This document shows positions 55,667 through 58,396 of a stretch of 64,000 nucleotides of DNA, in pieces (positions within the stretch are counted from its first letter, which is position 1; each line of letters begins with the position of its first letter). The stretch covers positions 62,001 to 126,000 of the forward strand of contig JAHBBC010000015.1 in the NCBI GenBank assembly GCA_019915015.1, read 5' to 3'. The DNA comes from Auriscalpium vulgare. Lineage: Eukaryota > Basidiomycota > Agaricomycetes > Russulales > Auriscalpiaceae. The position numbers were made by a program, and so were the translations under genes. Below the pieces are notes generated by a model. That model ran no database searches. It was given only the letters and a program-made list of their open reading frames with translations, and was not told where the DNA came from.

Positions 55667-55783
55667 TCACCATTTGGCGTATGGCAGGAATTTTCCGCTG
55701 ACATGACACAATCAGTGTATGAACAAACTGCCTTGATTTCCACTCACTCGAACGTCAACAAAACGCGATCGCCTTTAGGGTCT

Positions 55784-55791
55784 GGCTTCTT
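55784..55791. repeat. left target-site duplication of the cyanase insertion
   Basis: GGCTTCTT, repeated at 57075-57082 on the other side of the element. A ninth base (G at 55792 and 57083) also matches. Confidence 0.8.
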
Positions 55792-57074
55792 GAGGGCGGT
55801 GGGAGTATGGGGGATTGTCCGCCGGAGTCCGCCAGAGTCCGCCGGAGTCCGCCGGACGACAGAAACGCCTTAAGGCGACACACATAGCCTTCTAGCATTA
55901 ACATAGCATGCCGCCATGTACCCCAGCCCGCCATCTCGTCAATTATGCCAGGTGCACATTCTTCTTTCACACCCTGTAGGGTTGAGCAAGGGTAGCCAAC
56001 GCAAGGGACCTGTTGACCTTCTGCAGGTTTCGGCGAGCACGTACATTGTGGACATGTAGTGTCTTGAGTTGTTCCTCTCAAATCGGCTTAAAGGCTATCT
56101 GTTGAAATTGGATTAAGCTGTGTCTTCGACACGTCCTAAGCCATCTATCAATACCAGAGTAAGCCATTTTTTCACACTGCCTTAAGCCATTTCTTGGATA
56201 CATCTTCAGTTGTTATCTGTCCCGCCTTAAGACATTTTTAATCTGCCCTTGAGCTGTTTTGTCCGATGTGTCTTCAGGCATTCCCTCGCTAACCTGGGTC
56301 TCAGCTTAAGTCATTTTCGGTTCGACGTCGGTCCGACGATAGAAGAATGACTTAAGCCACATGTGGGACAAGAAAAAAAAAAAGCGCTATTTGTCAGGTT
56401 CGAACCCTATAGCCCTACCATCAATACGGCCGGCGTAATATACCAGTCAGCCAGAATGTTCATGCTAGCTACTTCAAACTAAAACCTATATTCCGCCACA
56501 TATCCAGGCTGTGACAGCCATTGCACGCTCCTTCCAAGCTTGCTGGTCTAGTTTCTGAAGGGCTACGTTAGGAAGAATGTAAGCTCATACTATTGGAAGT
56601 GCCTTGGTTGCTTTCCGAAGCCCATGAAGCCGGGGGGGATGTCTGACAGTCTTCAGGGTTTTCGGAAGCAGCTGAAGTCATTCTGAATGGCCTTAAGGCA
56701 CTGGATGCACGGATGAGCTTAAGACATATTCAAAACATGCCTGAAGGCAATATTTGGTCATACTTTGTAGAATGGCTTAAGCCACATTCCGTGATGCTGT
56801 ATGTGCGGATAAGCTTAAGTCATTTTTGAAACACGCTTGAAGGCAATTTCCTTTTGGCACTTTGTGGAATGGCTTAAGCCACAATCCGTGACGCTGTATG
56901 CGCGGATGAGCTTAAGTCGTTTTCGAAACACGCCTGAAGGCAATTTCCTTTCGGCACTTGGTAGAACGACTTAAGCCACAATCCGTGAAAAAGCTGGAAT
57001 CCGGCGGACTCCGGCAGACTCCGGCGGACTCCGGCGGAAATCTATTAAGTAATCCCTATACTCCCACCGATCTG
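55792..57074. mobile_element. non-autonomous DNA transposon, hAT-like, 1283 bp
   Basis: No transposase. Imperfect terminal inverted repeats: the right end in reverse complement reads CAGATCGGTGGGAGTATAGG, the left end GAGGGCGGTGGGAGTATGGG. Just inside both ends are four inverted copies of a 10-bp unit (GTCCGCCGGA type; 55817-55856 and 57000-57039). The body holds twelve CTTAAG hexamers and three tandem units of 96-97 bp. An 8-bp target duplication and a CAG-type end favour hAT; if the duplication is counted as 9 bp a Mutator-like origin is possible. Confidence 0.82.
56710..56993. repeat. three tandem units of 96-97 bp
   Basis: Units begin at 56710, 56806 and 56903 with CGGATGAGCTTAAG-like sequence. 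Each contains two CTTAAG sites, the second inside the palindrome GGCTTAAGCC in the first two units, and a CTGAAGGCAAT word. The third unit is slightly shorter. Confidence 0.85.
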
Positions 57075-57082
57075 GGCTTCTT
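57075..57082. repeat. right target-site duplication of the cyanase insertion
   Basis: GGCTTCTT, identical to 55784-55791. Confidence 0.8.
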
Positions 57083-57823
57083 GTCGACATGGACCTTGCA
57101 GTCAATCATAGACATGATCCCATCCCCGAACTGCGTATCCCGGTTACTTGCTTATCGGTAGAACAAACGGTGTGAGCACTGACCTTCTCGTGTATGACAG
57201 CCTGCGAATGCGAAGCAAGTTAGATGCATGTGCTGAGCACCCGTGTGTGCGTGTATGCGTACCTTCAATGCGTGACCGTAAACCAAAACTCCCTGGCCGC
57301 GGTGCAGGGGGTCAGACGGAACTACAAACCCATGGCCCGTCAAGACGGTACCTCAAACAAGCGATAGATGACCGGATCGGTGGGAGGAATGGGACCAAGG
57401 CCGCGATTCGGCCACCAATGTGCCCCCAAGCTCGCAGTTAATTGATCCTCCGGGAATCCGAGCACAGTGGCAAGTGCGGCTAATTCTTCGGGTGATCCCT
57501 TTGCCTGTGATTGCTCGCCCATTAGCGCGCGAGACAGAGAATGAGTGGGCCTACCTGGCCATAGAAAAGGGCAGCAACCCAAACTTCATCCTTGTTTATC
57601 TTCTGTGCGATCTGCTCGAAAGTCAATCCTGCTCAACATTTCAGCAAGGAGTGCAGGGATCTATGACGTCAGGGCGTACCCTTTCTGGCCTTCGCTTCGA
57701 GGAGCTGGCTGATAACTGGCGGCAGGTCGCTGTACGGGGCGTTGTTGGACGGGACAGTCTAAGACAGCGTCAACGTAGTGCCAGAAAACGAAGGAACTTT
57801 CTTACAGCACTGGTAGATGCCAT

Positions 57824-58396
57824 GATTGCGTGCGGATGAAAGCAATGGCGCTGGGATGCGGAAACGGAGGCATTTTGTACTCCGTAGCTTCAGGGCGCTT
57901 AGAAATGTCGGAACCAAGCACATGTGACTGAAGCCTGAGAGCGAAGGTGGGAGGTGGGAGGTGGGAAAGATATATCACCTATGGCGCTGGGCGCATCTAC
58001 AATCCTACTAGGCACATGTTCACGGGAAGCAGAGCAGGATGGCGCCAAGGACGTGCTCCCGAAGGCACACACGGGGATGGCAAAAGCATTGAGCAACAAT
58101 GAACAGGATAATGTCGTGATAGCCAGGTCGTCGAGGTGGGAGGAGGTCAGGGAGAACAGAGATACCACCTATGGCGCCGCGTGCATCTTCAATTGTCCAC
58201 GGGAAGAAGGGAAGTATGGCGCCAAGGACAGACTCCCGGATGCACGCACGGGGATGGCAAAAACATTGAGCAATAATAGATAGAATAATGTCATGATAGT
58301 CAGGTCGTCAGAGTCGTAATAGATCGTGAGCGTGAGGATACAGTAGAAACGATGTCCAAAAAATTCAAAAGATACAAACTCAGAGACCTCGCCATG
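57824..58396. other. intergenic with a local tandem duplication
   Basis: Between the cyanase start and the stop of the TMEM184 gene. Two diverged direct repeats, about 57950-58130 and 58135-58310, share CACCTATGGCGC, GGATGGCAAAA and GATAATGTCGTGATAGCCAGG-like stretches. The offset drifts from 190 to 176 bp because of an internal gap. No gene. Confidence 0.65.

Follow-up and report, generated by a model that had tools for sequence, protein, structure and literature searches.

A recent DNA transposon insertion in the cyanase gene of Auriscalpium vulgare, with evidence for an intact allele in the species

Introduction

How did the coding sequence of a cyanase gene in Auriscalpium vulgare come to be broken, towards its 3' end, by more than a kilobase of non-coding DNA, and has the fungus lost the enzyme? 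The gene lies on contig C15 of a genome assembly of 51.63 Mb in 96 contigs, in a stretch of 64,000 nucleotides (contig positions 62001-126000) that was analyzed as a whole and is called the window below. An earlier reading made from the sequence alone had described an otherwise undamaged gene interrupted at an in-frame site by a small DNA transposon, and had raised the prospect of a recent loss or polymorphism in cyanate metabolism. Gene disruption by a transposon is a familiar and ordinary kind of event. A literature search (cyanase, transposable element, fungi) returned nothing on such an insertion in titles and the opening parts of abstracts, and a second search (CxC5, KDZ, transposase) found nothing.

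The interrupted cyanase gene

The coding sequence consists of nine blocks, placed manually and then checked by script: eight exons, one of which is divided by the element (Table 1). Its seven introns are short (47-61 nt) and all GT...AG, with CAG acceptors in six and TAG in one. Joined without the element and one copy of the flanking duplication, the exons encode a protein of 164 residues, with a cyanate lyase domain at residues 96-162 (PF02560, 116.3 bits against a cut-off of 25, E 5.1e-34); a database protein identical to it, P0001, scores 165.7 bits against TIGR00673 (cut-off 113.3). The catalytic Arg, Glu, and Ser of cyanase (R96, E99, and S122 in E. coli numbering) are present in the motifs YRLFE and GIMSMID, visible by eye in three alignments, and all precede the insertion point. 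Just upstream of the cyanase start is a direct repeat (57959-58003 and 58149-58193; 45 nt, 78% identical, 190-bp spacing), with more short matches nearby.

The description of the gene as interrupted by a small DNA transposon stands: the insertion is precise, and is flanked by an exact 8-bp duplication. These boundaries are not a chance match, because exact 8-bp duplications also flank other copies and related elements. The site is “in-frame” only in the sense that the reading frame is restored when the insert is removed; codon 143 is split by the 1,283-bp element, and the net insertion of 1,283 + 8 = 1,291 nt (3x430+1) is not a multiple of three. Translated past the junction, the frame picks up five foreign codons (RSVGV) before a stop, so that the last 21 residues of cyanase, which belong to the cyanate lyase domain, are lost; loss of the C-terminal part had been foreseen from the sequence. 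No other lesion is seen at the protein level, where 164 of 164 residues are as in P0001. Many stops in the flanking exons, along with the same insertion in related genomes, had been named as counting against the earlier reading; the exon check found no stops there.

The interrupted allele is most likely null. On general grounds, the truncated cyanase would be expected to lose assembly or activity, and the transcripts are probably targets of nonsense-mediated decay, since the premature stop would be followed by a long 3' tail and by an intron.

Table 1. Features of the interrupted cyanase locus (window positions) and related sequences elsewhere in the assembly (contig:position).
Feature	Position	Strand	Remarks
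Cyanase gene, start to stop	57823-55667	-	contig C15 window (62001-126000)
Cyanase exon 1	57806..57823	-	start codon at 57823
Cyanase exon 2	57680..57758	-	
Cyanase exon 3	57555..57628	-	
Cyanase exon 4	57352..57504	-	also matched in genome search with protein
Cyanase exon 5	57263..57292	-	
Cyanase exon 6	57184..57201	-	
Cyanase exon 7, portion preceding element	57075..57130	-	ends inside codon 143
Cyanase exon 7, portion beyond element and duplication	55748..55783	-	
Cyanase exon 8	55667..55697	-	includes stop codon
Target-site duplication, copy 1	57075-57082		8 bp, GGCTTCTT (+ strand); flanks element
Target-site duplication, copy 2	55784-55791		8 bp, GGCTTCTT (+ strand); flanks element
DNA transposon, non-coding	55792..57074		1,283 bp; longest stop-to-stop frame 98 codons
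Terminal inverted repeat	57051..57074	-	begins CAGATCGGTGGGAGTATAGGGATT; end common to C2 and C23 copies and C4:991134
Terminal inverted repeat	55792..55816	+	begins GAGGGCGGTGGGAGTATGGGGGATT
Subterminal array, 10-bp repeats	56999..57038		
Subterminal array, 10-bp repeats	55817..55856		inverted relative to 56999-57038; 39 nt, 95% complementary
Internal tandem repeats, ~97 bp	56701..56988		with CTTAAG palindromes
Full copy on C23	C23:721741-723034		
Related element, 2,064 bp	C12:1241957-1244020		exact 8-bp duplication GAATCATG
Related interval, 26,075 bp	C12:489734-515808		exact 8-bp duplication CTCATGAC
Single GAGGGC-type end	C36:172342		
Single GAGGGC-type end	C36:195762		
Single GAGGGC-type end	C1:399907		

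Structure and relatives of the element

The terminal inverted repeats are imperfect: a 16-nt terminal core is 94% complementary and the 39-nt subterminal arms 95%, while the outermost bases of the two termini differ (CAGAT vs GAGGG). CTTAAG occurs 12 times in the element, compared with a mean of 0.42 and a maximum of 4 in 300 first-order Markov samples. An Rfam scan of the window returned no family at gathering score.

At least three full copies are present in the genome, including the one in the cyanase gene, a minimum from a search in which all five candidates were scored. The copy on C2 differs from the cyanase copy at 3 of 1,273 aligned bases, with one 10-bp gap (99.8% identity), and this near-identity indicates that the family moved recently; the copy on C23 is more distant (54 of 1,255 aligned bases, nine gaps, 96% identity). 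Each has its own exact 8-bp duplication (GGATTAAG on C2, CTCAACGT on C23). Such a duplication accompanies all five of the two-ended elements examined, the ends of the 2,064-bp and 26,075-bp elements on C12 having been paired partly by their own duplications.

Across the C2 insertion site no frame exceeds 72 codons. At the C23 site, an open frame of 252 codons, which may or may not be coding, is interrupted at codon 24 by the element copy; its 182 downstream residues gave no Pfam match and appear terpene-synthase-like by eye. For the three single GAGGGC-type ends, no matching second end was found among the five places searched. The two on C36 face one another across 23 kb, with unmatched flanking bases.

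Source of the transposase

It is fairly probable that the element is non-autonomous and mobilized by a KDZ transposase. This is favored because of a CxC6 frame in the related 26,075-bp interval, the 8-bp duplications, the abundance of KDZ-domain matches (at least 168 in the genome, with 150 of 204 candidates scored), and the absence of hAT-domain matches from C12 and C36. The CxC6 match (“cysteine cluster associated with KDZ transposases”; Pfam, E 2.4e-25) is to one frame of the interval; another frame matches a family-2 glycosyl transferase (Pfam, E 3.6e-40), and two further frames tried gave no Pfam match. The interval may be a large KDZ-type transposon with cargo. None of the KDZ-domain matches listed is on C12. 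The 33 hAT-domain (PF05699) matches in the genome include none on C12, which has four related ends, on C36, which has two, or near the single end at C1:399907.

In the available part of the source, target-site duplications of 8 bp are given for Zisupton, a KDZ member, and as usual for hAT elements, with 2-3 bp for Plavaka and 2-5 bp for Plavaka and its CACTA relatives (CMCT) together (PMC12730594). A Plavaka partner was rejected on this basis, the duplications here being 8 bp in five of five cases. That length would also suit a hAT element, but none of the 33 hAT-domain matches is close to the related ends, which makes a nearby hAT partner less likely.

Three observations or possibilities weigh against KDZ mobilization. 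The 26,075-bp interval could be two small elements around host DNA, sharing 8 bp by chance; it is possible that a hAT transposase encoded elsewhere in the genome acts in trans; and an unexplained 24-bp match to one terminus is found on C4, close to a Tnp2/Plavaka-like frame. The last is a lone, perfect copy of one element end (C4:991134), ~3.9 kb before the transposase frame, which matches PF02992 (E 2.3e-15) and scores 24.2 bits with the Plavaka model, below its cut-off of 26.3. A second end (up to two mismatches) was not found in the 18 kb read around it, and the 8-bp flank has 17 matches in those 18 kb (up to one mismatch, itself included), making the duplication test uninformative.

The element resembles Zisupton/KDZ transposons in its 8-bp duplication, its terminal inverted repeats, and the CxC6 frame of the related 26-kb interval, but it is itself non-coding and its termini differ at their outermost bases; the presumed 26-kb partner is known by its CxC6 frame, its KDZ catalytic domain being only presumed. 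There is also a likeness to MarorhAT of Marasmius oreades, described in the available part of PMC9674265 as short non-coding elements that share the ends of a longer relative and make fresh insertion polymorphisms in a mushroom. MarorhAT elements, however, belong to the hAT group and have a hAT transposase as partner, whereas here no hAT match lies near a related end.

An intact allele in the species

The joined protein served as query against 5.8 billion proteins, and the best 120 of 7,990 hits were used. The top hit, P0001 (“Cyanase [Auriscalpium vulgare]”, NCBI), is identical over 164 of 164 residues, and in all 119 other homologues among those best 120 the alignment of residues 136-152 is gapless. 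The contig that encodes P0001 is 422,403 bp long. Contigs of the present assembly are numbered by size (19 of 96 seen), and C31 (462,460 bp) and C32 (410,387 bp) bracket this value, so P0001's contig should not occur here. Nor does any GT...AG or GC...AG intron fit the removal of exactly the element plus one duplicate (border bases read by eye). Since P0001 appears to come from another assembly, and no intron fits, it is best read as the product of an intact allele whose insertion site is empty.

Judged from this protein, an intact allele very likely exists in A. vulgare. The polymorphism, and its recency, proposed in the sequence-only reading are supported by the intact and fully matching protein recorded for A. 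vulgare, apparently from a different assembly.

Proposed history of the locus and alternatives

The following sequence of events would account for these observations. A non-autonomous cut-and-paste DNA transposon, its KDZ (Zisupton-like) transposase most likely supplied in trans, would have inserted recently into the cyanase gene, at codon 143, in one A. vulgare haplotype, copying 8 bp of target. Transcripts entering the element would encounter a stop after five foreign codons, at the cost of 21 catalytic-domain residues. The interrupted allele would segregate with an intact one, carried by the other A. vulgare genome and perhaps also by the dikaryon's second nucleus. Taken as a whole, a recent KDZ-type insertion producing what is most likely a null allele, segregating with an intact allele, is the best explanation, and we consider it highly probable.

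Whether the strain has lost cyanase altogether is a question within this explanation, not exclusive of it. A fixed loss, with the insertion in both nuclei, is conceivable but somewhat doubtful. In its favor, the sole cyanase locus found in the assembly is the interrupted one. No second cyanase was found there by a family-profile search, a search with the protein gave four exon matches, all at the interrupted locus, and the 2.9 kb adjoining the gene revealed no second copy or retained haplotype; a second intact cyanase, cited earlier as something that would make this copy irrelevant, is thus not found in the assembly by any of these searches, which a very divergent copy could escape. Against a fixed loss, the sequenced genome is almost surely that of A. 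vulgare CBS 236.39, and in the available text of PMC8401616 this strain is among seven sequenced, all dikaryotic. Because the strain is dikaryotic, its other nucleus may carry an intact allele, hidden in a collapsed assembly that displays one haplotype. The exons also match the intact allele at the protein level, which argues against long pseudogene decay. The suggestion of a recent loss in cyanate metabolism consequently goes too far: the strain could be heterozygous for the insertion and could still be producing cyanase.

Another possibility is that the element is spliced out as a new, introner-like intron of 1.3 kb, with a slightly altered cyanase still being made. The windows tested contain 77 GT...AG pairs, eight of which would keep the full C-terminus in frame, giving proteins of 158-170 residues, and introners, in the portion of PMC9860276 available, can make a coding sequence a few codons longer or shorter. 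The element is also like them in being a non-autonomous DNA element that lies within an exon and has inverted repeats and a duplication. In-frame pairs are, however, expected by chance, and each of the eight depends on an AAG acceptor, in contrast to the CAG or TAG of the native introns; the candidates, at 1,273-1,309 nt, are more than 20 times as long as those introns. Introners are characterized by many copies residing as introns in genes, from 5 to more than 2,000 per family and with median lengths of 30-654 nt (same portion of PMC9860276); here three full copies were found, as a lower bound, of a longer element with no good acceptor and only hypothetical splicing. Splicing of this kind is therefore very unlikely. 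Slightly slimmer still is the chance that the element is an incipient intron yielding a working cyanase of 158-170 residues; the intron's donor would lie within the terminal repeat or immediately ahead of it, and the duplicated target would supply the AAG acceptor.

Finally, an assembly artefact, in which an element copy was mis-joined into the cyanase gene, is made conceivable by the near-identical copy on C2 but is extremely unlikely: a mis-join would not generate the separate, exact 8-bp duplication that is seen around every full copy, and the cyanase copy differs from that on C2 by three bases and a 10-bp gap.

Significance

The preferred explanation, a recent transposon insertion segregating with an intact allele, would provide a clean natural allele pair: one probably null allele and its intact counterpart in the same species. 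The gene concerned, found once in the assembly, has roles in nitrogen metabolism and detoxification, and a comparison of cyanate tolerance between strains or nuclei becomes possible. Were the incipient intron to prove real, it would capture, while still polymorphic, the opening stage of intron birth through a KDZ-type element. The insertion also points to a DNA transposon family that has recently been mobile in the pinecone mushroom, together with a related 26-kb element that is probably of the KDZ type.
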